A stretch of DNA of 22,389 nucleotides from a virus, in the IMG/VR virus record IMGVR_UViG_3300047358_000271, positions 1-22,389 of that record, one strand, 5' to 3'. The notes beneath the pieces were generated by a model, which made no database searches, was not told the origin of the DNA, and worked only from the letters and a program-made list of their open reading frames with translations. The translations under genes and the position numbers were made by a program. Shown in pieces: positions 7,610 through 22,389 of this stretch (its first letter is position 1; the number at the start of each line of letters is the position of its first letter).

Positions 7610-10600
7610 ATGGCAAATATAAGTTTTCAACTTAATCCTACTGGACAAAATACTGCTGCATTGGCTATCACAAATGGGATGGGCGGTTCTGCAATTACTG
7701 TTTGGACAGATGATGTTAATAATTCTGGTACAGTTAATAGCAATGACGACGTTTATACAACCGAGTCTCAAGGTGTTTTATCCGGGCCATTTGCTGGAGG
7801 GAATCAATACTATGCGATTCAGGAAGCAGCAGGAAGTATTAATGCAGCACAAATAGACAATTCTGGTGAGATAATATCAATATCTACAATTGACTTTGGT
7901 TCTAGTGAAGCAAGTCCAATAACTATTCCAGCAGGCGGTGTTGGCGATACTATTGTTATTAATAATATAACATTGGCAGCAGGTACTGTTACAGCAGTTA
8001 CACCTGCTACTTACCAATTAGGTTCTACAACTTATGATGTTGATATTACTGTGCCCGCAGGATATTCAAATAGTGGGTCTACAATTACACTCCAATCTAC
8101 TGCAACAGGTACAACTACTACTGCACCTCCAGCTCAAACATTTACTATTTTAGTAACTGATAGTAATGGTGCAACACCTAGTCCGTTAGAATTCAATGAG
8201 GGTGATACAATAAATGTAACTATTCAGGCTAGTGTAACAGGTGGTACAACATCTCTTGATCTGGTTGGTAGTACTGCGGTAGAAGCAGATTTTACAACAT
8301 GGCCAACTGAGATTGGAACAGGGAATACGACAGCGACTCTAGATTTTAGTAATGCTACTACAGTTCCTTTACAATTTACTGTTTCTAATGATTTCAGTGA
8401 TAATACAAATAGTGGTGGTTCTCCAGAGGGCTCAGAGACTATTGTATTAACATTAACAGATGGAACAACTGAGACTATAACTATTATAGATTCTAGTCAG
8501 AATCAACCGCCGGTAACATCCGATGTAAATGCTACTATTACTCAGACTGGGGGTGCACTGAATTTTGTAACTATTGATTTATCTGCAGGAACTAATGACC
8601 CTGAAGGTAATCCTAATAATAGTTTAGAGTGGGTAATTAGTGATATACCTGCTAACGGTACTTTTAGAGATCCGGTGCTTTCAGGTGTAGATCTTACAGT
8701 CAACGACCTTCCATATACTTTACCCGGCTATGAATTACGATATTATCCTGGAACAATATTTCAGGGAACAGAGACTGTAACAGGGTGGTTGGTATCAGAT
8801 CCAAACGGAGGACAGAGTAATACATCTGATATTATCATAAATGTAACTGCCCCTACTAACCAAGATCCGGTTGCAACAAATGTTTCAGAGACTATTTCAG
8901 GAACTGGAGCTGGCATTAATGTTAACTTTAGTAGAGCTGCGACTGATGATTTAATCGGTGGAGCTTTACAACCGTTTCAATGGTGTTTAGCAGATGGAAC
9001 TCCACAGACTTTAGCACAAATAAATGCTACGCTAACTTATGGTTCTGTAAGTAATATTGCAGCAGAGGTCTGGCAGTATACAACCAATGCAAGTGCGACT
9101 TTAAACCCTGGGGCATCTTCAGTTGATGATACATTTTACTTTTTAGCAACAGATGCTGCAGGTGGAATTGATGTAGGTCAGGTTCAAATTCAAATTACAG
9201 CACCTGGTAATACAGCACCATACTTTAACGTATCAAATCCTGCTCCTATTGCAATTGACCAGGGGACTGCACATGTTGTGAGTAATATTGCTACAACAGA
9301 CCCTGAGGGACATACAGTAACGATTACTAAAATAGGCCAGGGAGGAACTGACACAGGTGCTAATGCTACTCTTAGTGGCAATACATTAACAGTTGTAGGT
9401 TCATCGCCAGGTACGGTTACTGTAACCCTAAGAGCAACTGACCAATTTGGTTTATCTGATCAGAGCAATGATGTAACTTATACATTTAACGTGACTGCAG
9501 TACCTTATAGAGCTGTAAGACATTCTAGTTTTTCAAATTCAGATGCAGCAGCATGTGGACTAGAAAGACCAATTAGTGAAATATACTACTATAATACTGG
9601 TCAAGGCGGGGCAACCTTTTTAGCTAATTTAGCAATAGGAGATGTTTTATACCAAGATTCCTCGTTAACTTTACCGGTTGTACCTAATAGCTCTAATTCT
9701 GCTTGGGTTTCATTAGAGGAAACATCACAGCAAACGGTAAAGGCTGCTAAATTAAACGCGACAACAGGGGCTATTGAAGAGTTTTTAAACTGTACTATTA
9801 CAGGGGGTAATGCATGGTCTATTGTAGTTAGATATTCTGAAAACTCATCACTTTATTGTGGTGGACTCTATGAAGAGGGAGAAGCTTGGCAAAATATAGG
9901 TCCTACTGCAACACTAACAGATGTTGTATCTGTAGGTGGTCAATTATTCCCAGATGAATTTTCTGCTAACCAATACTCAGGTGCTACAGCACCTACTGAT
10001 AGAATTTTAGCAGATGGTATTTACAATCAAGAGGATGATCCTGAGATTCCAAGTAGAGGATATTACTCTTACAATAACGGTTGGCAAACAAATCCAAATC
10101 CAGAGCCCAACGATCCAACCAACGATCCAAACGCGGTCGCGCAAGTGAATAGACTATATGTATGTCCACCAGATATTGTATATCAAACTAAATCGCTAGA
10201 TTGTTATTTTCTTAGCCAAGATCCTGCTAACGTAAGCGCGGTTTGTAATGCTATGACTGAGGTTGAATGGGATGATTCAAAACTTAACTTTGATGCAATA
10301 ACTATTTACTATAGACAAGATGTAAATGATAATGATACTTGGTCTTTACTAGATATTGCGAAAAATCAAACGCTTGTTTATACTGATCAAAACGCTGCAG
10401 ATAGTTTAAACTACAATCTTTTACAACCTACTTCTATTTTATTAGACTCTAGTAGTGGAGGTTTTGTTTTATGGGATAATAACGAATTTACAGGATATGA
10501 TGGTTCATATAAGTGGTATGCATTCTCTCCAGATGATGGGAATGTTGCCACACAAGATAATATACTAGAGGTTGCTGATATAGGATCTATTTACGGAGCA

Positions 10601-13600
10601 TGTGGCGATGGAATAACCGGACCTAGTGCTGATTATGAAAGACCTAATCTTTTTGAAATACAGGATGGCCTTACTAATATAGGCGTTGGAACTAATAGTG
10701 GCACTGGAACTAATGTTTATTATGTGTTTTATGCATGTGACTCTGAATTAGATCCAGGAGTACCTGGAGGTTCTCCATATTACCCGGTTTATTTAGTAGA
10801 TGGTATGGTTGAAAACATCCAAATGCTTGACCCTGGTTATTCTTATATTAATGATTTTGTAAGAACTATAACAGGTACTAGTAAAAATACAAGAGCTCAA
10901 ATTAAACTAGGTGGTAAATGTTTAACATATACGAATTATGTTGTAGCAACCAATATAGAAGAGGCTGTTGCTTTTATGGAAGCAGAGATAGAAGGTTTAT
11001 CTACGGATAATATTGCACTATCAGGTGCGGGAGATGTTCCTGCTCGTGTTGTTTCTATTAACGCTATAGATTTAGGGTTTGCAAGTGAGGCTCAAGCTTC
11101 TTGGTTACAGATTGATAATGCAAATAAAGATACTATATGTTACACTTGTTTAACTCAAACAGGGAACTGGACTTTATATGATTTTCCAACTATAGATAAT
11201 GCTGAGATTCTAAATAGGACTCTACCTAATTTTGACCTAGAAGAAAACTATGTATTAGACGGTGTATCAAAGCCATTATTAAGAACTAATCCTAAGTTAT
11301 CAACTAACGTTAAATTAGTAGTAAATAATGATGATAGAATTTATATTGAGTCTATTGATGCTACTAAAGAGTTAGCTTCCGTAGAGTATAAAAGATGGGA
11401 ACTTAACCCTAATGGGGATTGGTCTCAAGATTTATATAAATTCTTTAAGAGTAGTTCTACTCCTGCTGATATAATGTATGCGACAAGATCTGATTACTCT
11501 GATTTTACAGTACAAGACTCTTTTGATAAACAAATAGAAGAGGTATATCATTATGGGACAACATATAACTATTCTAAACTACACGATGAGGATTTTAGAA
11601 TGTTAGCTCCTATTTGGTTAGATAAAGATATTCCTAAAAGATTCGTAGTATTTAGGGTTAACGATCCTGTTGGTGAGTTAGACTTTGACGATAAAACTAA
11701 CTTTAATAATATACAAGATATTTTAAAACATTCTCAAATTATTAAGACCTTTGATTTAACAGATGATTCTTCTATTGGTAAATATATTAGAAACCATGTT
11801 AACTCAGAATCTTTCCCTAAAACTCCAATACAGTTTAACTTTTCTAAAGGAGAAAAGAGTAATTTTAGAGGTATTGATTTAGGAAAAGGAGGGTTTACTT
11901 CTAAGGGCGAATATTTACATAAAGATTTTGTTTATACAGACAATCCTTTAATATCTAGTAACGCTTTAATTACAGATGGTTTTGAAAGAAATAAGCTTGC
12001 TTGTGCTAACCTAATTAATTTAGAATTCTTATTTAATGATGACGGGGCGTCCGATTATACTATTAATAGATATTTTGGATTATATGTAAACGATATTGAT
12101 TCTGGGTACGGTTCTTTAAGTTCTGCGGATAATGGTAATATTATATTTAATTCTTTAAATTCACAAATTAATGAAGACCCTACATCAGCAATACCTTCGT
12201 TTAAACATATTTCAGGAACACCTACATTAGGCTATATGTCTATTAGTAATGAGTTCTATAAAATATCATCTAAAGCAAAATATGACCCTGAGAACTTAAA
12301 TTTAATAGTTGAAGATGATACTAATAAAATACCTGCTGAAATTAAAACTGCAGAAAATGATAAATCTGTAGATATTGTAAAAGAAGATTCTGTAGGTTTT
12401 GACTTTGTTAAATTTACAGTAACGGGAACTCCAGCAGTAAATGATAGATTTACGGTCTTCGAATCTAGAGAATCTTCGTATTCTTTAAAATTCTTAAGAC
12501 ATATACCTAACGAACAATGGAATCTTTCTTTTAACAATGGCGGTAATGTTCAAAATATGACTATTGTAACACAAAGTAATATCCAGGGGACTGTAGGAGT
12601 TATATCTGCTGCAATAAACTCTAATAATATTAATGTTACGTATGATGAAACTATTAATCCTAAAGAGTTTTATATTACAGAAAAGAATGCAACGCTAGGA
12701 GATTTAGAAATATCATTTAACGCTATTTCCCCTCTTACTAGTAGCAGTATAGTTAAGATTACTCAAATACAATCTTCTTTAAATTTAGGCAACTCTACTT
12801 TCTTTGCTACACATAACTTAGAGCCTGGAACTTTTAATCAAACTTCTTTCTCTCTACAAGGCTCATTTGCTGATATTGCACGTGCAATATCTGGAGCTAT
12901 AAATGCAAGTTCAATTAATTTCGACGCTGTGATAGAGGACGGAGCAACTGAATTTTATGTTAAGAATAGAGTATCTGGCTATAAACTTTTACAATCAGGT
13001 GTTTTAATTCCTTTTAATAATGCTAATAATTTTATTACTTTAGAAAATAGAGATTTAAAATCTGACGGATTACCTAATGGCGAGTTAAGATTGGCTAATA
13101 ATGTTGCTACTTCTAATTTTGTACACTTTATGAAGGGTGGTAACTCTGCTGGTAAGTCTGTTTTAATAACTAAAGATTCTGTTTCGGATATTAACATAGG
13201 AGATATGTTAGCTACAAGTTCGACAGGTGTTTTTAATAAAGTAATAGATATTGTAGATGATATTTCAAATTCAAATACTATATACAAAAAGTTAATTTTA
13301 GAAAGTAAAAATACTTTAGAAAGTGGAGAACAAAAAGTTTACGCAGAAAATATTGCTAGGCTTGGGTTATTCTCAGCATACGATATTCATGATATGAATT
13401 TCGATTTTTACGATACAAAAAATTCTGACCTAAAAGAATTAGAATTAGAAACTGCTACTAATATTAACTACGAACCTGAAAGAAGTACATCTAATACCCT
13501 TTCAGTTTTTGGAAATGATTATGATATAACAGATCCTTATAGTTATTTTAGTGGTATTAGTGATGTTTTACCTGAAGAAATATTAGATGAATATAACGAA

Positions 13601-16054
13601 GTTAAGTTATCTAGTGAATACGACAGGTTAGAAGAAAACAACTTAAAAGAGTTTGCTGTTAGATCTAGAGTAACTCCTAATATTAACAAATGGGTTTTAA
13701 AAGATAGTTTAACTGTAAGAGAACAGCCATATTACTTAAATGCTAATGAGGCTTTTGGAAGGACTAACTTTTCACCTGATTTTGGAGCAAATAATAGAGA
13801 TAGACTTGGGATGACGCATGAGTGGTTTTACATGGATAACTTACCTAAGTATTTACAATATACAGACCTTAATAATACGTTTAGTTATGTAAACTTTATG
13901 GACGGTTTTGAATTAAAACCTTCACATTTTAAAAGCACAACATATAACTACTTTGATAAATTTATGATAACGGATGGTTTTGAAATAAAAGACCAGTATG
14001 ATATAAATACATTTATTAAAACAGACCTAAAGAAAAAGTATACTTTAATTTCAGGCGGTAATGATGTATCTTTTGCTAGTACTATTTTTAAGGGTATTAA
14101 AGTTGATTTTAAAAATAGAAAAGAGTTTTTAAATAATAAAGCTACTGAGTTTGTTAAAACATCTGATTTTAATGGGTATAAGTTTAGTACTTTACTTTTA
14201 GTAAGAGGTGGAGCTAATAGAAACGGAGTTGAATATGAGATAATTCAAAATAAAGCTTTTAAATTTGTTATATTTTTAATCACAGTATCTTTAGATGATT
14301 TATGGATAGACGGAGCTTTAAATAGAAAACTTATGTATGAGATGAATCATAGTTTTGTATGGAACCATGAAGAAAGAAACTTCTCTTACTCTGATGTAAA
14401 ACTTTCTGGTGCATTAAATCTAAATGATATTAATTTTACAGCCCCAAGTGCTGCTAATTATTTAATAGCTAATGGAATTGAACACTCCGATGGAACTTTG
14501 CCTCAATTCTTAGATCAAATTAACCCAGATGACGATGATGCATTTGGTGAAATTTTCATAACCATTACAGATTCTACTGGTGAAACAACTATTAAGGTTA
14601 AAATAAACTCTGTAGATGACCAAGGTCAAATAACTCTAGCTGGACCTCCAGTTGACTTAAATGGCAACTCTGTTAATGTTTCTAATATAGCTGGTTACAT
14701 TCAAAGAAGCGCAGAGTATGTATATAAACAGGGTGGTAAAAACGCATTCACGACGATCTTAGACCAATTAGCAGTAGCTAATGTAGATAATTTATTAAAA
14801 CTAAATGACGGTGATATAACTTATACTACTATTGAAGAAGATGGAGAAGTTTTAAATAACCAATTTGAATTAGAATTTGAAAACGGAGTTGAAATTATTA
14901 AAGAGGCTAGTTTAGTTACAATTTCTGATGAGGATAAACCTAAAACCTTTAAATTAAAACAAGGTACTATAGGTTACAATCTTTTTTCTGCAGATACGTA
15001 CTATCCATTCTTAGTTAGACATAACGGAAACTATACACTAGATACTAGACCTGTTGTAACTTTTACAGATACTTATTCTCATTTTAAAACTAATACTCTA
15101 CAGACTTCATTAAATACAAGAGAGTTGAATTTTGAAGAGCCTATATATAAACATTCTTTAACTAGGGCAGAAGAAATTAAATTAGCTAGAGATTATTACA
15201 AGAGATATAATAGATGTGGAACTGCATTTAACTTAGGGTTCATACAAGATAATGGAATACATGATTCGGAGTGGGGTATAATTAAAAACCACTTCTATAG
15301 AAAGGTAAATGAATCTGGTGCAACTAACGTAACTAAATTATCAGCAACAACTGATAAATTACCTTTATATCCATTGATTGGAGAAGTTGCAATAGATAAA
15401 AAAGACGTAAATGTATTTAGGTCTTCTTGGGATAAGAATTATTATACCAGGTCTTTATCAGGAGGTTTGGCACAGCCAGTTCCGGGTACATTTGAAACTA
15501 AGGAGGAGAGATCTTATTTAGGTTCTACTATTATGAAAGTAAAAGACTCATATAATATGACTCAATTTACTACTACAACTGTAAAAACTCAAAAAGAGCA
15601 AGATTCTATATTAGCTAATAATAACAATACGACTGATGTGGTGTTATTTGAAGATAAAAAATATGTATACATAGATTTCTATATTACTACTACTATTAAG
15701 AAGTTATTAGCACAAGATGGTGTATTAGATTCTATTAATAAATATGTTGCTGCGGTAGATTCTGCAGGTGATAAAACTACAACTAAGGACGATGCACTAC
15801 TTTATGTTGAAGATAATTTGATTAATACTTTTAATTTAGATATAATTAAAATATATTCTAATAGAATAAAGGGTGTTTCTTCAGAAATACTTTCTTCTGC
15901 AAGTATTGACAATTTAGATGATGGTGGCTATAAAAACGATATAAACTTTACGTTTAAGTCGCATGAACAAAAGCCCCTTAATTTTAGATTGATATATAAT
16001 AAAAGATTAGGTTACTCTTATATGATTAGACCTATGGTAAAAATAAAGTCATAA
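7610..16054 (+). CDS. Giant modular virion protein (2814 aa) with adhesin-type N-terminal domains
   Basis: Residues 1-165 are Gly/Thr/Asn-rich beta; about 166-176 form a Thr-rich linker (GTTTTAPPA); about 177-295 resemble Calx-beta (FNEGDTINVTI, late EGSETIVLTL). About 298-415, 417-530 and 533-632 look like cadherin-like/tandem-Ig repeats, starting N..PV or NTAPYF with DPEG, ATD and DPNGG turns. About 645-730 is a Cys-flanked module with GDVLYQDSSLT. An Asn/Pro linker lies at about 828-845, then a Cys-rich region to about 1190. From about 1222 (PLLRTNPKLSTNVKLVV) to the end is a long region whose late part (AFNLGFIQDNGIHD, VNVFRSSWDKNYYTRSLSGG) I recall, unsearched, from other large Bacteroidota phages. 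No signal peptide, membrane helix or enzyme motif is visible. It is probably a long tail, baseplate or fibre protein: the C-terminal two-thirds the conserved body and the N-terminal third the likely surface-binding extension. Confidence 0.8.
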   Translation: MANISFQLNPTGQNTAALAITNGMGGSAITVWTDDVNNSGTVNSNDDVYTTESQGVLSGPFAGGNQYYAIQEAAGSINAAQIDNSGEIISISTIDFGSSEASPITIPAGGVGDTIVINNITLAAGTVTAVTPATYQLGSTTYDVDITVPAGYSNSGSTITLQSTATGTTTTAPPAQTFTILVTDSNGATPSPLEFNEGDTINVTIQASVTGGTTSLDLVGSTAVEADFTTWPTEIGTGNTTATLDFSNATTVPLQFTVSNDFSDNTNSGGSPEGSETIVLTLTDGTTETITIIDSSQNQPPVTSDVNATITQTGGALNFVTIDLSAGTNDPEGNPNNSLEWVISDIPANGTFRDPVLSGVDLTVNDLPYTLPGYELRYYPGTIFQGTETVTGWLVSDPNGGQSNTSDIIINVTAPTNQDPVATNVSETISGTGAGINVNFSRAATDDLIGGALQPFQWCLADGTPQTLAQINATLTYGSVSNIAAEVWQYTTNASATLNPGASSVDDTFYFLATDAAGGIDVGQVQIQITAPGNTAPYFNVSNPAPIAIDQGTAHVVSNIATTDPEGHTVTITKIGQGGTDTGANATLSGNTLTVVGSSPGTVTVTLRATDQFGLSDQSNDVTYTFNVTAVPYRAVRHSSFSNSDAAACGLERPISEIYYYNTGQGGATFLANLAIGDVLYQDSSLTLPVVPNSSNSAWVSLEETSQQTVKAAKLNATTGAIEEFLNCTITGGNAWSIVVRYSENSSLYCGGLYEEGEAWQNIGPTATLTDVVSVGGQLFPDEFSANQYSGATAPTDRILADGIYNQEDDPEIPSRGYYSYNNGWQTNPNPEPNDPTNDPNAVAQVNRLYVCPPDIVYQTKSLDCYFLSQDPANVSAVCNAMTEVEWDDSKLNFDAITIYYRQDVNDNDTWSLLDIAKNQTLVYTDQNAADSLNYNLLQPTSILLDSSSGGFVLWDNNEFTGYDGSYKWYAFSPDDGNVATQDNILEVADIGSIYGACGDGITGPSADYERPNLFEIQDGLTNIGVGTNSGTGTNVYYVFYACDSELDPGVPGGSPYYPVYLVDGMVENIQMLDPGYSYINDFVRTITGTSKNTRAQIKLGGKCLTYTNYVVATNIEEAVAFMEAEIEGLSTDNIALSGAGDVPARVVSINAIDLGFASEAQASWLQIDNANKDTICYTCLTQTGNWTLYDFPTIDNAEILNRTLPNFDLEENYVLDGVSKPLLRTNPKLSTNVKLVVNNDDRIYIESIDATKELASVEYKRWELNPNGDWSQDLYKFFKSSSTPADIMYATRSDYSDFTVQDSFDKQIEEVYHYGTTYNYSKLHDEDFRMLAPIWLDKDIPKRFVVFRVNDPVGELDFDDKTNFNNIQDILKHSQIIKTFDLTDDSSIGKYIRNHVNSESFPKTPIQFNFSKGEKSNFRGIDLGKGGFTSKGEYLHKDFVYTDNPLISSNALITDGFERNKLACANLINLEFLFNDDGASDYTINRYFGLYVNDIDSGYGSLSSADNGNIIFNSLNSQINEDPTSAIPSFKHISGTPTLGYMSISNEFYKISSKAKYDPENLNLIVEDDTNKIPAEIKTAENDKSVDIVKEDSVGFDFVKFTVTGTPAVNDRFTVFESRESSYSLKFLRHIPNEQWNLSFNNGGNVQNMTIVTQSNIQGTVGVISAAINSNNINVTYDETINPKEFYITEKNATLGDLEISFNAISPLTSSSIVKITQIQSSLNLGNSTFFATHNLEPGTFNQTSFSLQGSFADIARAISGAINASSINFDAVIEDGATEFYVKNRVSGYKLLQSGVLIPFNNANNFITLENRDLKSDGLPNGELRLANNVATSNFVHFMKGGNSAGKSVLITKDSVSDINIGDMLATSSTGVFNKVIDIVDDISNSNTIYKKLILESKNTLESGEQKVYAENIARLGLFSAYDIHDMNFDFYDTKNSDLKELELETATNINYEPERSTSNTLSVFGNDYDITDPYSYFSGISDVLPEEILDEYNEVKLSSEYDRLEENNLKEFAVRSRVTPNINKWVLKDSLTVREQPYYLNANEAFGRTNFSPDFGANNRDRLGMTHEWFYMDNLPKYLQYTDLNNTFSYVNFMDGFELKPSHFKSTTYNYFDKFMITDGFEIKDQYDINTFIKTDLKKKYTLISGGNDVSFASTIFKGIKVDFKNRKEFLNNKATEFVKTSDFNGYKFSTLLLVRGGANRNGVEYEIIQNKAFKFVIFLITVSLDDLWIDGALNRKLMYEMNHSFVWNHEERNFSYSDVKLSGALNLNDINFTAPSAANYLIANGIEHSDGTLPQFLDQINPDDDDAFGEIFITITDSTGETTIKVKINSVDDQGQITLAGPPVDLNGNSVNVSNIAGYIQRSAEYVYKQGGKNAFTTILDQLAVANVDNLLKLNDGDITYTTIEEDGEVLNNQFELEFENGVEIIKEASLVTISDEDKPKTFKLKQGTIGYNLFSADTYYPFLVRHNGNYTLDTRPVVTFTDTYSHFKTNTLQTSLNTRELNFEEPIYKHSLTRAEEIKLARDYYKRYNRCGTAFNLGFIQDNGIHDSEWGIIKNHFYRKVNESGATNVTKLSATTDKLPLYPLIGEVAIDKKDVNVFRSSWDKNYYTRSLSGGLAQPVPGTFETKEERSYLGSTIMKVKDSYNMTQFTTTTVKTQKEQDSILANNNNTTDVVLFEDKKYVYIDFYITTTIKKLLAQDGVLDSINKYVAAVDSAGDKTTTKDDALLYVEDNLINTFNLDIIKIYSNRIKGVSSEILSSASIDNLDDGGYKNDINFTFKSHEQKPLNFRLIYNKRLGYSYMIRPMVKIKS
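10109..10132 (+). repeat. Two 12-bp tandem units encoding an Asn/Pro linker
   Basis: 'aacgatccaacc' at 10109-10120 is followed by 'aacgatccaaac' at 10121-10132, encoding the NDPTNDPN part of a proline/asparagine linker near residue 835 of the giant protein. The linker separates the adhesin-like N-terminal third from the Cys-rich and conserved remainder. The following bases (gcggtcgcgc) are locally more G+C-rich than their surroundings, which could mark a past joining point. Confidence 0.6.
15989..16001 (+). promoter_or_regulatory. Possible promoter box inside the 3' end of the giant gene
   Basis: An exact copy of TTGATATATAATA, also found at 7559-7571, ends 56 bases before the ATG of the collagen-like fibre gene at 16058. 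Here it lies within coding sequence for residues reading LIYN. Together with the copy before the giant gene, it may give each of these two genes its own late transcript. Coincidence in A+T-rich coding DNA remains possible. Confidence 0.3.
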
Positions 16055-16057
16055 GAA

Positions 16058-17770
16058 ATGGCCATTAACATTCAAGAAATACTACACCCTAGTGACTCTG
16101 ATAGTATCAAGTTTGAGAAGATTAACTATAACTTCGACCAGATACTAGCAAACGGTGGCGGACCTGTTGGACCTAAGGGCCAAAAGGGAATCCAAGGAGT
16201 ACTAGGTCAAACCGGTGAAAAAGGCGAAAAAGGTGACTTAGGTCCAGTTGGCCCATCTGGTGAAACAACTAGCCCTTGGAAATCTATTGCGATAGATTTG
16301 AATGCACAAGACGGCGTAAATGATGTCACTATTTTAAAGCCTAAGCCGCAAAATGATAAAGAAACTCCTGTTATTTGGTTAGGAGATTCTGCATTTATTA
16401 ATGATGGTAATCCAGCCGGGGATGGAGATGTTACTTTAAGATCTACTTTGAATATTAGTAGACACTCTAATTTTGGACCTCCCTCGAGTATTGAGGCTGG
16501 GTATGTAACTTTATGGCATGATGCTAATAATAAAATTAGAATTGATTCTGAGAATGTAAATACTGGCTCTGGCTTTGTTAGATATAACATAACCCCAGTA
16601 CAGCCTATTACCGGTAGTCAAGATATTAGATTGCAGATTAATGCACCAACAATACACACAGAGACATTTCAATTAGATAATCAGGCTGCTAGTGGAGCTT
16701 TATCTAGTGGTATGATTAGATATAATTCAGGTGGTAATAAATTTGAAGGTTATATTAATAATGCTTGGGTAGAGTTTTGTATGGATCCTTGTGGTTCAGG
16801 CGGAGTTACTGGTACTATTTCAATATCAGGTGGAGACTTAAACCTTAACGCTGATGGTACTTTAAGTGGAGATTCCATTTCAATATCAGGTGGCGACTTA
16901 AATCTTAATAACGATGGTACTGTTAATAGTGGGTCTACATCTTCTACGACATCTACATCTTCTACGACATCTACATCTTCTACGACAGCAGCGCCCCAAA
17001 CTCAACAATATACTATCTATTTTTCTGGTAATAGTTTGGCTAATAACAATTGGGACATTGACTCCCTGGTATTAGATCAAGCTTATTCAGGTTCTGCTAG
17101 TAATCCTAATTTTTCGTATGATAGCGGAACATTGACTGGTATGATAACTGCAGCAGCGGGAGATATTTTAAGATTTCAAATAACAGCAAGTGCAACAGTA
17201 GGTCGAGAGTTTAGTAGTGGAGCTCCATTTAATGTTGGAGGTGGAACGATAATATCCCAGCAGGTATCTCAAAATAATACTGATGCTGGTCTTGAAATTG
17301 AAATAGGTTTACCTATGACAGGTACATCTGATAATGTTACTATTGAAGCTGCAACAGTTCAATTATTGCCGCCTAATGCGGACGACTTTGATTTTACTAC
17401 AGGTCAAATGACTAATCCATCCGGTCTACCAGTGACCTTTGGAAACGGTATGCTAGATCAACTTCCTGTAACTCAAGGCGGTGGAAATATAGCTCTTCAT
17501 TTTGATTCAAGTAATACTATAGCACAGTCTGATTTTTCTATTCCTAATTTTGTTACATGGGCTAGTTCTAACCCGTTAAGTTACAATGGTACAACTGATA
17601 CTGGTACCTTGAATTTAGTAGTTAATGGAAATACTGGAAGTAATTCTAATGCTAGAACAGGTAATGTTACATATACTGGTACATTGACGATGGGTAATGT
17701 AGGGAACGTCCAGATACTGCAAGACGGTAATAGTGTAACGAGTCCAAGCCCTTATGGTCAAAATAACTGA
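16058..17770 (+). CDS. Collagen-like tail fibre with Ser/Thr stalk and BACON-like tip
   Basis: A 570-aa protein. Residues 3-26 carry the docking-like pattern NIQEIL...DS.S...INYNF, shared with the protein at 1264. Residues 35-70 are twelve uninterrupted Gly-X-Y triplets, a short collagen-like helix implying a trimer. Residues about 71-215 are beta-rich. Residues 218-241 (SGMIRYN, FEGYINNAWVEFC) match the end motif of many phage fibres. Added after this are two 20-residue SISGGDLNLN repeats (252-291), a Ser/Thr linker (about 292-313), a beta domain (about 315-435) and a BACON-like domain (about 470-560: W at 501, NARTGNVTY, then VQILQDGN). BACON domains are typical of Bacteroidota and their phages and are thought to bind carbohydrate or mucin. 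Three bases separate it from the upstream gene. It is the only gene here ending in TGA, immediately followed by an in-frame TAA. A host-recognition fibre is inferred. Confidence 0.8.
   Translation: MAINIQEILHPSDSDSIKFEKINYNFDQILANGGGPVGPKGQKGIQGVLGQTGEKGEKGDLGPVGPSGETTSPWKSIAIDLNAQDGVNDVTILKPKPQNDKETPVIWLGDSAFINDGNPAGDGDVTLRSTLNISRHSNFGPPSSIEAGYVTLWHDANNKIRIDSENVNTGSGFVRYNITPVQPITGSQDIRLQINAPTIHTETFQLDNQAASGALSSGMIRYNSGGNKFEGYINNAWVEFCMDPCGSGGVTGTISISGGDLNLNADGTLSGDSISISGGDLNLNNDGTVNSGSTSSTTSTSSTTSTSSTTAAPQTQQYTIYFSGNSLANNNWDIDSLVLDQAYSGSASNPNFSYDSGTLTGMITAAAGDILRFQITASATVGREFSSGAPFNVGGGTIISQQVSQNNTDAGLEIEIGLPMTGTSDNVTIEAATVQLLPPNADDFDFTTGQMTNPSGLPVTFGNGMLDQLPVTQGGGNIALHFDSSNTIAQSDFSIPNFVTWASSNPLSYNGTTDTGTLNLVVNGNTGSNSNARTGNVTYTGTLTMGNVGNVQILQDGNSVTSPSPYGQNN
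16160..16267 (+). other. Collagen-like Gly-X-Y segment
   Basis: This stretch encodes twelve consecutive Gly-X-Y triplets (residues 35-70 of the fibre), including GPK, GQK, two GEK and two GPV/GPS-type triplets. Lys and Glu are enriched in the X and Y positions, which stabilises triple helices without hydroxyproline. Such segments are known in phage fibres as trimer-forming rods. Confidence 0.85.
16811..16930 (+). repeat. Two 60-bp tandem copies within the fibre gene
   Basis: Copies at 16811-16870 and 16871-16930 are in frame and encode 20 residues each with the core SISGGDLNLN.DGT. The first halves are nearly identical at the DNA level, including 'atttcaatatcaggtgg', and differ mostly later in the unit, which fits an in-frame duplication followed by drift. 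They lie just after the usual fibre end motif and just before the Ser/Thr stalk. Confidence 0.85.
16934..16987 (+). repeat. Three perfect 18-bp tandem copies encoding a Ser/Thr stalk
   Basis: The unit tctacatcttctacgaca occurs three times without any mismatch, at 16934-16951, 16952-16969 and 16970-16987. Each copy encodes STSSTT in the fibre frame. Perfect identity at synonymous positions indicates recent expansion or ongoing slippage. Because the unit is a multiple of three, gain or loss of copies would change the stalk length without breaking the gene. Confidence 0.92.
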
Positions 17771-17789
17771 TAAGATTAATATAAAATAT

Positions 17790-18599
17790 ATGAACGACAA
17801 AATAAAAAATATATTAGCAAATAGAACTCTGGTAACTTTCGTTGCGGGAGCTCTTCTGTGTTTATTATTTCTTAAACAATGTAATAGTATTGAGAATTTA
17901 AAACAAGATGTAAAATTAGCACAACAAGATGCTGATAGAAATCTTAATAATTTTAAAGCAGCTCAAGATTCAGTTACTGTTTTAAGAAATGATAACGGAG
18001 ACCAGTTAGCTCAAATTAGATCTTTTGAATTTGATTTATCTAACTTACAGAATAGTCAAGCTAATTTAACTAAAAGATACCAAAAGGCTCTTGCGTTAAA
18101 TAAAGACTTGAAGAAGGTTAACTCGCTGATTTCTGCAGAATTAGAAATTACAGATAGCCTAGACGTTGCAACGTCAACGGAGGTAGTAGATACAACTACA
18201 TCAAAAATTAATTTCGAGTCTAGTAGAGATTTCGGAAATGGAAACTCAAGATTCTTAACTGGATATTCCACTGTTAAATATGACTTTGGTAAATTTACGG
18301 TATTAGATACTAAATTTGAGTTAAAACAAACTCTAAGCTTAATGGCTGCAATTGAAGAAGGAGAAGATGGTGCAGATAGATTAAAACTGTCAACGACGTA
18401 TCCTGGCTTAGAGATTAAAGATATTGAAAATATCAACCTAGTTAATACTAGACTAAATAGAAGATCAGAGAAAAAAGCTGGTTGGGGTATTGGTCTTGGT
18501 GTAGGTTATGGTATTAATTTAAACAATAACCAAGTGATTAGTACAGGCCCTTCAATTGGGATCGGTCTTTATTGGTCACCTAAATTTTTAAGATTTTAA
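17790..18599 (+). CDS. Membrane-anchored coiled-coil protein, spanin-like layout
   Basis: From ATG 17790 this is 269 aa. An alternative in-frame ATG at 17754 would add 12 residues and overlap the fibre gene by 17 bases; 17790 is preferred because an A-rich leader precedes it and the N-terminus then reads directly into the membrane segment. Residues about 13-29 are hydrophobic (TLVTFVAGALLCLLFLKQ) with Lys/Arg before them, fitting an N-in inner-membrane anchor. Residues about 33-118 are a long coiled coil. Residues about 140-225 are beta/helical. Residues 228-269 are Gly-rich and amphipathic (GWGIGLGVGYGINL...GPSIGIGLYW) and end in Phe, like outer-membrane beta strands. One anchor, a periplasmic coil and an outer-membrane-like end suggest an envelope-spanning protein such as a spanin, though a tail or assembly role is possible. 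I do not recognise the family with certainty. Confidence 0.72.
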   Translation: MNDKIKNILANRTLVTFVAGALLCLLFLKQCNSIENLKQDVKLAQQDADRNLNNFKAAQDSVTVLRNDNGDQLAQIRSFEFDLSNLQNSQANLTKRYQKALALNKDLKKVNSLISAELEITDSLDVATSTEVVDTTTSKINFESSRDFGNGNSRFLTGYSTVKYDFGKFTVLDTKFELKQTLSLMAAIEEGEDGADRLKLSTTYPGLEIKDIENINLVNTRLNRRSEKKAGWGIGLGVGYGINLNNNQVISTGPSIGIGLYWSPKFLRF

Positions 18600-20672
18600 A
18601 TGGCGCAATCAAGTAGATATTTTAGAATAGACGAAGACATCCTGTTAGAGTTTATCTACCACGATCAAGGTGACTTGGAAAAGTACAAGATTGAAGTAGA
18701 TGATAACGGTAGCGAGGTAATGTTTTTAGATACAGTAGATCAAGATCCGTATCAAGCTAGACACTTAATTAATGAATTAGGTTCTGCGGTAGTGAACTTT
18801 GATGTTACTGTTATGAGTGGTTATATTGCTGTAGAAAACTTCGCGGCTAGAACTCTACTTCTGCAAAATGGTAAGACTTACAAATTTGATTTGAGTGCTC
18901 TACCTAATCCAGCTGATTTTTCTATCTCTGGTCAATTAGGTATTTACACTTATTCTCCAGTTACTAATATTGGACAATTTACTCCAAATGTAAATGGTAA
19001 AATTTCTTACAGCTATCCAGGACTAAAGGGTGGTAAAATAATTGTAGATACTAGAGCTAATCCTCTTTTTGCATCACCAGATGAAGCAACAGGAAATGAT
19101 ATTAACCAGACAATTGGAAGATACCATGCAATTAAAACTCCTGGACCATCAGATACTACAAAGTATGCTCTTTTAGGTTACGACTCAACCGGAGATTATG
19201 ATATGCATAACTATATTAATAATAGTTTTGAATGGCAAGGTGGTAATGAGGCTGATTTATTAAATTATCAAACAGAAGCAACTCAAAATATTAACTATAT
19301 TTTATACGATAGTATTAGACTGCATTTAAAATCAGGTTTTAGTTTTTCTGCAAGAGGATATGAGGGTTTCTTATTTGAAGTTACTTCTAGAAGAACAAGT
19401 GGTATTAATAACTTTTTGACTCAGTTGGTTTATTTAAACCAAAGTAACTATGAGTTTTCAAATCCTAAACCATTTATTTTAGGAGAGACACTTTGGTCTA
19501 AATATATTAATTTAAAAATACCTACTATTGTAAATCAGAATTCAGAATTTAATGATAGGTTTTACGGAAATGGATCTCCAGGTTCAAGTGACTTAGACCT
19601 AACTGCTAATTACGGGATTAGATTTGCACTTCTAGATCAATTAAGAACTATCGAAGGTTTCGACTATGTTTATACTGCAGAAGAGAATAAGTTTACAGTC
19701 TCTAGAGAAGATGAATATGCTGATTTCACAGTTGTAGTTGAAGATGCGGAAGACGGGGATTACTTTAATATTTACGGAGAGAAAGACAATTCAATCAATA
19801 ATTTTGAGGGACATATATTAAATAGAATTCAAACGTCAGCAGATGATATTGTGGTTATGTATGACGTAGATGTATTTGAGCAAATAGGAACTGCTCAAGT
19901 AAAATCTTATACTAGTCAATTTACACAATACGAGAGTTTTAACGATCCAATAAAATTTAGACCTGTAATTAACCAAGCTAATATTGCTGTTAACTTCTCG
20001 ATTGAAGTAACAATGAGAATTTACAATCAAACAGATAATACACAGATTGTAAAAAGAGCAAGTTTAACAATAGACCAAGCTGCTAGATATGGTAAGAAGT
20101 TAAGTGCTTTAAAAATTGATAACCCAAATATATTAACTGAGGTTTACAATATACTGCCTAGCCTTGCTACTAATAAAGTTATCTCAGGTTTTATTACTGA
20201 CAATCTACCAAGATCAGTAAAAACAGTACCCGCATTTGTTGAAAGACATAATGTAATTGCTAGTTCTGCAAAAGTAAATTTAGTCGGTGCTGGTGATAAT
20301 CCAATTACAAAAGAGGTTGAAGAATTCGATACAACTGATTTTGTAAATGAAGGTGATTTATCTATTAGTATTCCTCCTTTTGCATCTTACTATAAATTTG
20401 CTATTGCTAAGAAAAGAGGAGATGATTTTGATATGATTTCATTTGAGAATGCAGAAAGAGTTATACTTACATTTAATGACGGTAAACAAAAATTAAAATT
20501 TAACCATGTCTATAATAAAGATATTGATATGGGCTTAGGTGAAGTTCTGTTTACTATTAATGAAGCTAACGCGACAAGTATTAGAGGTATGAAGACTGAC
20601 GCTTTCTATATTAGCATTGATAATGGGACCGAAGAGACTATGATTACTAAAGGTAAATTTACTATTGGATAA
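18600..20672 (+). CDS. Phage structural protein of unknown role
   Basis: A 690-aa protein with no signal peptide, membrane segment or catalytic motif. It opens with SRYFRIDEDILLEFIYHD, which I recall loosely, without a search, from structural proteins of Bacteroidota phages. Residues about 60-160 are beta strands (VVNFDVTVMSGYIAVENF, GKISYSYPGLKGGKIIVDT). The centre has Asn/Tyr-rich strands, and about residues 490-530 contain RIYNQTDNTQIVKRASLTI followed by YGKKLSALKI. The C-terminus is a beta domain. Its ATG directly follows the TAA of the upstream gene with no spacer, and its own stop overlaps the next ATG by one base (TAATG), so translation with the tail-tube-like gene downstream is probably coupled. 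A tail or baseplate component that contacts the tube is plausible from this pairing but unproven. Confidence 0.7.
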   Translation: MAQSSRYFRIDEDILLEFIYHDQGDLEKYKIEVDDNGSEVMFLDTVDQDPYQARHLINELGSAVVNFDVTVMSGYIAVENFAARTLLLQNGKTYKFDLSALPNPADFSISGQLGIYTYSPVTNIGQFTPNVNGKISYSYPGLKGGKIIVDTRANPLFASPDEATGNDINQTIGRYHAIKTPGPSDTTKYALLGYDSTGDYDMHNYINNSFEWQGGNEADLLNYQTEATQNINYILYDSIRLHLKSGFSFSARGYEGFLFEVTSRRTSGINNFLTQLVYLNQSNYEFSNPKPFILGETLWSKYINLKIPTIVNQNSEFNDRFYGNGSPGSSDLDLTANYGIRFALLDQLRTIEGFDYVYTAEENKFTVSREDEYADFTVVVEDAEDGDYFNIYGEKDNSINNFEGHILNRIQTSADDIVVMYDVDVFEQIGTAQVKSYTSQFTQYESFNDPIKFRPVINQANIAVNFSIEVTMRIYNQTDNTQIVKRASLTIDQAARYGKKLSALKIDNPNILTEVYNILPSLATNKVISGFITDNLPRSVKTVPAFVERHNVIASSAKVNLVGAGDNPITKEVEEFDTTDFVNEGDLSISIPPFASYYKFAIAKKRGDDFDMISFENAERVILTFNDGKQKLKFNHVYNKDIDMGLGEVLFTINEANATSIRGMKTDAFYISIDNGTEETMITKGKFTIG

Positions 20673-21223
20673 TGATTTTAAATAGCAGAAATAACGCATA
20701 CGATTTTAGATTCCCTAGAAAGTTTATTCCTGAGGAAGTAGCTGAGAAATACAAGAAGTATTTGAATAGAGTTCCAGGTGGACTTTTAGCAGAGCCGATT
20801 GATTTTGTTAACTATTCTATCCAAGGTCTTAATATTCCAGGTGTAGCTTTCGAACCAATTACTCAATCAGATAATGATGGTACCGTAAGAAACCATAGAG
20901 GTGCAGTACCAATTCAAAATACAATTACTAGAGAGTTTACAGTCACATTTCAGTTATTAGATGGTTTCATTAATTACTGGATTATGATGGACACTCTATT
21001 ATATTACTATGCTAGATCGACAAAACAGGCTTATATTGAACCTATGACTCTAAGAATTTTAGATGCCGAGGGAGCTTCAGTAGCCTATATGGAATTCAAT
21101 GGTATTATTATGAACTCAATTAATGAGTTAAATTTAAACATGGCAGAAAATGTATCTGATTTCAGTACTTTTGAATGTAGTTTTGTTTACAACAAACTAG
21201 ACCTGAGATTAGAAATAGAATAA
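20672..21223 (+). CDS. Tail-tube-fold protein (T4 gp19/gp54-like candidate)
   Basis: A 183-aa protein. The order of elements resembles the tail-tube fold shared by T4 gp19 and the tube-initiator gp54: an N-terminal segment (FRFPRKFIP), a strand with an 'I.IPG.....P' turn (SIQGLNIPGVAFEPI, cf. the 'LPAG...IPV' strand of gp19), a strand ITREFTVTFQLLDG (cf. 'RTFDDWTVTVMND'), a helix (NYWIMMDTLLYYY), then two strands with a hairpin and the ending MNSINELNLNMAENVSDFSTFECSFVY, like the 'NVGELQLDWD....I.TFEVTL' ending of gp19. The length is close to gp19 (163 aa). The match is judged by eye and is of fold rather than close sequence. It could be the main tube, a baseplate-tube junction or a tube-like minor protein. 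It overlaps the stop of the upstream gene by one base. Confidence 0.6.
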   Translation: MILNSRNNAYDFRFPRKFIPEEVAEKYKKYLNRVPGGLLAEPIDFVNYSIQGLNIPGVAFEPITQSDNDGTVRNHRGAVPIQNTITREFTVTFQLLDGFINYWIMMDTLLYYYARSTKQAYIEPMTLRILDAEGASVAYMEFNGIIMNSINELNLNMAENVSDFSTFECSFVYNKLDLRLEIE

Positions 21224-21225
21224 AA

Positions 21226-21234
21226 GATATATAA
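21226..21234 (+). promoter_or_regulatory. Partial TATA-like box before the small head-protein candidate
   Basis: GATATATAA here is identical to the core of the boxes at 7561-7569 and 15991-15999, but it ends only three bases before the ATG at 21238. A promoter this close would give an almost leaderless transcript, so it may be only part of the A-rich translation leader ending in 'aaact'. Confidence 0.2.
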
Positions 21235-21237
21235 ACT

Positions 21238-21615
21238 ATGAAAGATACTAAAACATTTAACGAATACTTAGTTGAGCAAAAGCTGACTGATACGGATATG
21301 AAGCTTTTACAAGAAGGCCTTCAACAAGAGTGGACTCAAGATTTAGAAGATAAAGTTGATTATGCATTAGAGCAATTTGTACAACAATACCAAAAAGAAG
21401 ATGGTACTTTTGAATTAGACAGACTAGAAGAAGCTTTTGTAAATGAAGGACTTTTAGGTTCTATCTTTGGTGGTTTAGCAGGATTTGCTTTAGGTAAATC
21501 TGTTGGTAAAGTTATTGCTAAAGTACTTGGTATTCAAAAAGGTATTTTCTACGATTTATTAACTTCCCGTTTAGTTGGCGCTGCCCTAGGTGCTGCAATG
21601 GGTAAAAGAATCTAA
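21238..21615 (+). CDS. Small glycine-zipper protein with T4-like capsid-targeting N-terminus
   Basis: A 125-aa protein. Residues 5-13 read KTFNEYLVE and align without gaps to the T4 internal-protein capsid-targeting sequence KTYQEFIAE, matching the pattern K-T-aromatic-x-E-aromatic-aliphatic-x-E. In T4 this peptide directs proteins into the prohead core and is cut after the final Glu by the gp21 protease, which favours Leu/Ile-x-Glu. LVE at 11-13 fits that rule, and LQE (24-26) and LEE (63-65) are further possible sites. Residues 14-68 are acidic and helical. Residues 70-125 are hydrophobic with regular Gly/Ala spacing (GLLGSIFGGLAGFALGKSVG, then RLVGAALGAAMGK), a glycine-zipper pattern of membrane-inserting peptides. 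Inference: a head internal protein that may enter the host with the DNA. Alternatives are a scaffold or core protein, or a holin-like peptide. It lies 14 bases after the tube-like gene. Confidence 0.65.
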   Translation: MKDTKTFNEYLVEQKLTDTDMKLLQEGLQQEWTQDLEDKVDYALEQFVQQYQKEDGTFELDRLEEAFVNEGLLGSIFGGLAGFALGKSVGKVIAKVLGIQKGIFYDLLTSRLVGAALGAAMGKRI

Positions 21616-21616
21616 A

Positions 21617-22288
21617 TTGAATTTAGTTACAGTTGACTTCTCGCTTAATTCCCCTGGTATTTGTATCTGGCAATCTAGTACGAACAGGTATCACTTTATC
21701 TCATATCTTAAACCTAATTCAGGTACAAAAGCTGAACAGCGAAGACAAGAAGAAATAGAGACATTCTCAGATGTTTCATTAATACATCAACCTGATTGGA
21801 AAGCTTCAGTAGGAGATTATTCTAAAAACGAATTCGCTAAGATAATAAGATACAAGACTACAGCAGACCATCTTATTAAATTAATCACAGGTATTACACA
21901 AACCACAGAAGATTATTACATTGCTTTCGAAGGTTCTTCTTACGGATCTAAGATGGGAACTAATAATATTATCGATATGGCAGCAGGAGCTGCAATACTT
22001 AAAGAGCAAATGATTGCTAGACTCGATGTCAAAAAATTAATGACCGTTGCACCGACTACAATTAAGAAACATGCCGGTAAAGGGAATATGAATAAGTTAG
22101 CTCTTTGGATGGCATTCTTAAATAATGTTTGTGAGTCACCTGAGTTAGCTAACAGTCCTCTATATAAATATTGTGTAAGTGAAATTGGTGAGGTTAAAAA
22201 AGTTCCGAAGCCTTTTGATGACCTAGTCGATGCTTGGTTTCTTAATCATTATTTGCTCTCGCAACTTGGGGAAAATTTGCCAGACTAA
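21617..22288 (+). CDS. RuvC-like Holliday junction resolvase / RNase H-fold nuclease
   Basis: A 223-aa protein if it starts at TTG 21617. It would cut branched DNA in the cytoplasm. Visible RuvC-type elements in order: Asp7 in the first strand (TVDFSLNSPG), Glu105 (IAFEGSSYG), a glycine/lysine loop at 148-160 (TIKKHAGKGNMNK, cf. RuvC 'vK..v.G.G.A.K'), and the final acidic helix Asp201, Asp202 and Asp205 (PFDDLVDAWFL, cf. RuvC 'D..DA.A'). These complete the expected metal-binding set. Start choice: ATG 21590 would add nine residues (MLQWVKESK) and overlap the upstream gene, in a G+C-rich stretch with no A-rich leader. TTG 21617, two bases after the upstream stop, has such a leader (gggtaaaagaatctaaa) and places the first Asp at the usual distance. 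Placement beside virion genes fits a role in debranching DNA before packaging, analogous to T4 gp49. Confidence 0.82.
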   Translation: MNLVTVDFSLNSPGICIWQSSTNRYHFISYLKPNSGTKAEQRRQEEIETFSDVSLIHQPDWKASVGDYSKNEFAKIIRYKTTADHLIKLITGITQTTEDYYIAFEGSSYGSKMGTNNIIDMAAGAAILKEQMIARLDVKKLMTVAPTTIKKHAGKGNMNKLALWMAFLNNVCESPELANSPLYKYCVSEIGEVKKVPKPFDDLVDAWFLNHYLLSQLGENLPD

Positions 22289-22389
22289 CCAAATCTCTGC
22301 TTTCAAGCCTCTTCTGGCTAGTCTCTGCTTCCGGTACTACTCTTCCCCTGAGGTTAAATACATAACTTATATGCTAGTTCCCAGAAAAG
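22289..22389. other. Terminal segment: pyrimidine-rich gap, possible start of another gene
   Basis: After the resolvase stop the + strand becomes pyrimidine-rich and less A+T-rich than the rest of the window. TCTCTGCTTTC (22294-22304) is nearly repeated as TCTCTGCTTCC (22322-22332). A 4-bp G+C stem, AGCC 22306-22309 with GGCT 22316-22319, lacks a T tract, so no terminator is claimed. TTAAATA at 22354-22360 precedes an ATG at 22371 that opens a frame reading MLVPRK to the window end. This could be the start of the next gene, but six codons are not enough to say. The same frame is open back through the gap. Confidence 0.35.

Follow-up and report, generated by a model that had tools for sequence, protein, structure and literature searches.

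A variable, optional C-terminal arm on the collagen-like tail fibre of a probable Bacteroidota phage

The window analysed here is a 22,389-base metagenomic virus fragment (IMG/VR record IMGVR_UViG_3300047358_000271), all large open reading frames of which lie on the plus strand. A single frame encodes a tail fibre, whose parts and neighbours are listed in Table 1. Residues 1-34 of this protein probably serve in attachment to the virion. The collagen-like stretch behind them matches PF01391 at 20.6 bits, below the cut-off of 27.2 bits; 46 of 49 homologues match this family, and the Gly-X-Y pattern is clear. A beta-rich body lies between the collagen-like stretch and the GMIRYN...FEGYINNAWVEF motif, and the latter (SSGMIRYNSGGNKFEGYINNAWVEFC, residues 216-241) is followed by 329 residues. 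Several elements of this C-terminal part had been named in a preliminary description of the DNA and were confirmed. The duplicated 20-residue unit is mirrored in the DNA by two 45-nt copies (16817-16861 and 16877-16921; 87% identical, spacing 60), and the Ser/Thr stalk contains exact DNA repeats. T/S/P-rich linkers occupy the position of the stalk in most homologues. Beyond it, about 260 further residues follow in the window fibre.

Table 1. Features of the fibre locus, in window coordinates.
Feature	Position	Strand	Evidence or remark
Giant structural protein, 2814 aa, directly upstream of the fibre	7610..16054	+	Homologue in LR756500 is 1527 aa
Tail-fibre gene, 570 aa	16058..17770	+	75 homologous IMG/VR loci; phage LR756500 (462 kb) has a syntenic fibre gene encoding 1789 aa
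Conserved N-terminal segment, residues 1-34	16058..16159	+	Identity 0.96-0.97 over residues 1-30 (55 distinct homologues)
Collagen-like Gly-X-Y stretch, residues 35-69	16160..16264	+	PF01391, 20.6 bits (below cut-off)
GMIRYN...FEGYINNAWVEFC motif, residues 216-241, internal	16703..16780	+	No homologue stops there
Duplicated ISISGGDLNLNxDGT unit, residues 254-288; last conserved part of the core	16817..16921	+	Repeat family D1
Segment without counterpart in short-form L002, 870 bases	16902..17771	+	blastn
Ser/Thr-rich stalk, residues 290-312	16924..16993	+	Three exact 18-nt repeats at 16934-16987
Middle beta-sandwich domain, residues 314-437	16997..17368	+	Replaced in L059, absent in L002; AF2 pLDDT 76, 11 strands
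Tip domain, residues 442-560, beta-rich	17381..17737	+	BACON-like by its homologues
Next gene: membrane anchor, coiled coil, C-terminal DUF6808-like	17790..18599	+	PF20647, 18.5 bits, below cut-off

None of the relatives of the giant upstream protein in the annotated phage collection has its first 1212 residues: their matches begin at residues 1213-1223, and the LR756500 homologue also begins at about this point. The added region (7610-11245) carries a TTTTAPP-type linker and repeats and represents a second large addition in the cluster. Downstream of the fibre, the next gene encodes an N-terminal hydrophobic segment, a coiled coil and a DUF6808-like C-terminus. Its called start at 17754 overlaps the fibre stop and is probably too early: homologues begin with MxDKIKNIL, which corresponds to about position 17790 in the window, and in the window's subgroup the orthologues begin with these residues about 2-22 nt past the fibre stop. 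Further away, the C-terminus of a 363-aa frame (166-1257) partially matches PKD at 23.8 bits against a cut-off of 23.5, which places a further Ig-like module close to the tail genes, and the protein encoded at 21590-22288 is 26-27% identical to annotated RuvC-like Holliday junction resolvases of Dickeya, Salmonella and Enterobacter phages. Proteins encoded next to the fibre match those of Tenacibaculum phages PTm1, PTm5 and pT24, Flavobacterium phage MaF61 and Chryseobacterium phages MA9V, as well as Lak phages of Prevotella, Sphingomonas phage PAU and huge uncultured phages; one neighbour is annotated as a baseplate wedge in MaF61. LR756500 is syntenic, and its fibre shares residues 3-74 with that of the window at 40% identity. 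The whole fibre, used as a query, had no match in the annotated phage collection. From the neighbour matches, which involve distant relatives, and the baseplate wedge annotation, we infer a Bacteroidota host and a tail location; the source is probably a large Bacteroidota-infecting phage.

The homologue set comprised 75 IMG/VR loci, 55 of them distinct with the window excluded. Mean identity between the window fibre and these 55 is 0.96-0.97 over residues 1-30, about 0.4 in the motif at residues 216-241, 0.40-0.54 over the duplicated unit as well as over residues 211-285 at large, and only about 0.05 (range about 0.03-0.13) past residue 315. Conservation holds to about residue 288 and then collapses. 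The preliminary description had taken the motif for the normal end of the fibre, a view we abandon because none of the 55 distinct homologues stops there and conservation continues well beyond it; hence, the duplicated unit belongs to the core. The shortest natural fibres extend about 28-68 residues past the motif. Seven short forms (L002, 286 aa; L015 and L017, 274 aa; L004, 312 aa; L061 and L069, 308 aa; L062, 307 aa) stop at the repeat unit, and in them the orthologue of window frame 17754-18599 starts about 2-11 bases past the fibre stop. These short forms therefore place the end of the core at about residue 288, some 45 residues beyond the boundary first proposed (241). The idea that short forms result from programmed frameshifting was rejected, since the other frames after the short stop code for the next gene and not for the extension.

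We found that what follows the core differs from one relative to the next. The close relative L002 ends at the core boundary and has the same next gene directly after it: blastn homology with the window covers 10718-16901 (74%) and resumes over 17772-22389 (82%), the 870 bases in between being absent from L002. L059 keeps the core and the tip and differs in the middle (DNA breakpoints 16923/17382), where the same core and tip enclose an fn3 domain (E 6.5e-5) together with a second domain. L001 shares the window architecture with a diverged middle (breakpoints 17023/17384). Other homologues carry unrelated modules behind Thr/Ser/Pro-rich linkers, and the L072 fibre has a Peptidase_S74-like end. 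Because close relatives are devoid of the arm, have another middle part or bear wholly different modules at this position, residues 289-570 are shown, at the level of sequence comparison, to be a variable and modular extension that is optional and exchangeable. The fibre family thus combines a constant N-terminal part with a divergent C-terminal part, and its C-terminal modules are replaced or missing at one junction between the same flanking genes. In related phages the extension is either variable or absent, and the homologues do not share a single C-terminus, since seven shorter forms exist.

The extension had been read as the graft of a tip onto a complete fibre. The short forms and the DNA breakpoints uphold one half of this reading, namely that the C-terminal part is optional and exchangeable; the boundary lies near residue 288 and not at 241, and the direction implied by the word is not established. 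The opposite account, to which we would give slightly less than even odds, holds that the long form is ancestral and that short forms of the L002 type arose by deletion, no tip ever having been added to a finished fibre. In a tree of the core, L002 falls inside the clade of the window, L001 and L059 (91/89 support), and the tip and downstream flank are common to L059 and the window, both of which favour deletion. However, the tree has short forms at three or more separate positions (L002; L015/L017; L061/L062), and neighbouring lineages bear unrelated extensions, so that neither state is clearly ancestral. Since short forms are scattered over the tree, a graft cannot be claimed as the direction of change; it denotes one direction only, and loss is equally possible because L002 sits within a clade of extended forms. 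Both gain and loss of the arm have probably happened.

The arm contains two beta-rich domains. For the middle one, AF2 predicts an all-beta sandwich (Table 1), in agreement with the beta domain originally described. A structure search with this model returned an adhesin as best match (Z 6.2), which is not diagnostic; many equal weak matches were found, and for this reason we assign no family. Relatives of the window middle domain are present in L001, L052 and L060. Single-sequence searches of viral contigs with the tip and middle domain confirmed no relatives, profiles of both domains had no significant hit among PDB sequences, and NCBIfam and PHROGs searches of the arm gave nothing useful.

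The identity of the tip is less clear. It had been described as BACON-like, and a profile search for PF13004 (BACON; Pfam gathering cut-off, 25 bits) gave no match in the window protein or in the tip alone. The support comes from its homologues: the window tip is 57-65% identical to the tips of L001 and L059, for which BACON is the best Pfam match, in both cases below 25 bits (L059, 19.9 bits, E 7.6e-4; L001, 18.6 bits, E 1.8e-3). In hhalign, the tip profile reached a probability of 8.7 against the BACONs of L032 and L034, and of 1.4 against 18 BACONs of the same group; the latter exceeds chance only slightly, since 9 of 400 column-shuffled controls scored as high. When the tips were taken singly, equally high scores were reached by 0 of 1000 shuffles for L001, 2 of 1000 for L059 and 137 of 1000 for the window. 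AF2 modelling of the tip with three sequences did not recover a fold (pLDDT 46) because alignment depth was lacking, and Foldseek and VIA matches of the tip were set aside because of this pLDDT. An alignment-based tip search of viral contigs found L001 and L059 only, and neither tip nor whole fibre had a homologue in bacterial genomes. PF13944 (Calycin_like; E 0.008, below cut-off) was considered for the tip and rejected, as the tip homologues do not match it. Given the missing match in the window tip, the sub-threshold homologues, the near-chance profile and the failed fold prediction, we therefore call the tip only BACON-like, a weak and unproven assignment.

BACON domains are, on the other hand, frequent around this fibre, a setting that speaks in favour of the BACON-like reading. 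PF13004 matches 37 of 50 related records (30 above cut-off) and 2 of 14 control genomes; many BACON-bearing records are near copies, and thus these counts do not represent independent events. Among the 37, the domain lies in a separate gene directly downstream of the fibre in 29, within the fibre in four and in the upstream giant protein in four. Two of the four in-fibre cases are the sub-threshold tips of L001 and L059, whereas those of L032 (27.2 bits) and L034 (28.8 bits) exceed the cut-off in the same variable region. The L032 and L034 fibres also carry a Listeria-Bacteroides repeat (PF09479; residues ~514-576) in the variable arm together with BACON. Within the 50 related records, in-fibre and downstream-gene BACONs never coincide. 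The downstream BACON genes mostly start about 20-60 bases past the fibre stop, an intervening gene being present in L054 and L055, and 17 of them terminate in a Hint-like domain with Cys, T-x-E-H-P and H-N motifs (in L014, PT-HINT at E 6.5e-6, just below its cut-off). Moreover, the C-terminus of the L003 fibre (residues 774-935) is homologous to the Hint-like C-terminal domain of these downstream genes (E ~1e-28). Modules therefore pass between the fibre and the downstream gene, by fusion or fission.

The order within the downstream genes (L014:8020-9567, L013:7440-8996, L028:7717-8970 and similar ones) is BACON, a T/P-rich linker, sometimes a beta domain, a Gly-rich stretch and Hint. Their Hint (intein-like) domains have the Cys, T-x-E-H-P and H-N elements intact and mostly no Cys/Ser/Thr past the Asn, with a short tail left. 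A self-cleaving phage adhesin is a possibility for the downstream gene and the L003 fibre. As a tentative and rather doubtful extension of these observations, the gap between the core and the next gene may constitute an adhesin-exchange slot of undescribed large Bacteroidota phages, filled by fusion with, or fission from, a separate BACON-linker-Hint gene; forms with Hint would self-cleave, and the window would represent a fused form without Hint.

Our preferred reading, to which we assign a probability of about 0.65, is that the gene encodes a tail (baseplate-associated) fibre whose core, spanning residues 1 to ~288, is constant, while its C-terminal putative adhesin arm (~289-570) varies. 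The conserved N-terminus would hold the fibre on the virion, and the collagen-like part and beta repeats would form a trimeric shaft. At the free end of this trimeric fibre, the arm would consist of the Ser/Thr linker, the beta-sandwich and the BACON-like tip, the flexible stalk keeping the beta domains away from the shaft. These domains may contact glycans or proteins on the surface of the Bacteroidota host in a low-affinity, multivalent fashion, and recombination at the core/arm junction would exchange the arm and change adsorption specificity. The arm is a putative module most likely devoted to receptor binding or adhesion; mucus binding, also envisaged in the preliminary description, is no more than a possibility, and no feature seen here points to a mucosal habitat.

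We consider it less likely that the beta domains are merely accessory Ig-like decorations or spacers, comparable to T4 Hoc or the BACON of BoGH5A, that lengthen the fibre or confer weak non-specific stickiness while host specificity resides elsewhere, for instance in the core or another fibre. Functional-looking relatives do without the arm, a bacterial BACON has been described as a spacer (PMC11216935), and the giant neighbour (7610-16054) has its own extra 1212-residue linker/repeat region, as promiscuous decoration predicts. However, the arm occupies the free C-terminal end of the fibre, where receptor binding usually takes place, and no part of the protein varies more; both features fit selection on recognition. 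Finally, an assembly chimera or sequencing artefact, conceivable in a metagenomic virus fragment, is extremely improbable, as independent contigs from other samples (L001, L059) join the same tip to the same core or flank, the frame is open, and DNA identity to L001 and L059 is 75-83% rather than near-identity.

A junction for gain, loss and exchange of a fibre tip is mapped to within a few bases, with the short forms as built-in controls. In addition, work on phage BACON has mostly dealt with crAss-like phages, and the present group, in which BACON is common at the fibre locus, is a different one. Should the arm govern adsorption, short/long pairs would make the role of BACON on a phage directly testable. 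For the solved bacterial BACON (BoGH5A), carbohydrate binding was not shown and a spacer role was reported (PMC6949934, PMC11216935), and BACON proteins of gut phages displayed on another phage raise adhesion to epithelial cells (PMC13370021).

The shuffling of phage receptor-binding and Ig-like modules is a known phenomenon, and variable fibre ends are widespread and ordinary. The BACONs of crAss-like phage tail proteins (PMC6949934) resemble the present ones in being linked to Bacteroidota, in lying in or near tail genes, and in showing a poorly conserved C-terminus and domains shuffled between lineages. In contrast to those phages, the present group, which is related to large Tenacibaculum, Flavobacterium and Lak phages, has single BACON or BACON-like domains that either occupy their own gene behind a collagen-like fibre or are fused to the fibre; in the sole gene with both scored, PF13004 scores well above viral BACON_2. 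Gut-phage Ig-like adhesins with BACON and PKD (PMC13370021) and T4 Hoc likewise combine modular beta-sandwich domains in various ways on proteins of the virion, whereas our modules stand at a fibre end. Collagen-like phage tail fibres (PHROG 366, 18350 and 10972) share a Gly-X-Y stretch behind a short N-terminal domain, but the similarity of the window is confined to the collagen-like part. The tail-fibre C-termini of marine phages in metaviromic islands (PMC3909814) show the same combination of constant N-terminus and lineage-specific C-terminus, within the host-recognition module; they belong to another phage group, whereas in the present one the exchange slot can be mapped with the help of exact short forms and of an adhesin gene next to the fibre. 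Altogether, earlier work had described variable marine-phage fibre C-termini (PMC3909814) and the occurrence of BACON on tail proteins of phages (PMC6949934); the phage group, the exact junction, for which short forms exist in nature, and the exchange of modules between the fibre and the BACON-Hint gene beside it are new.
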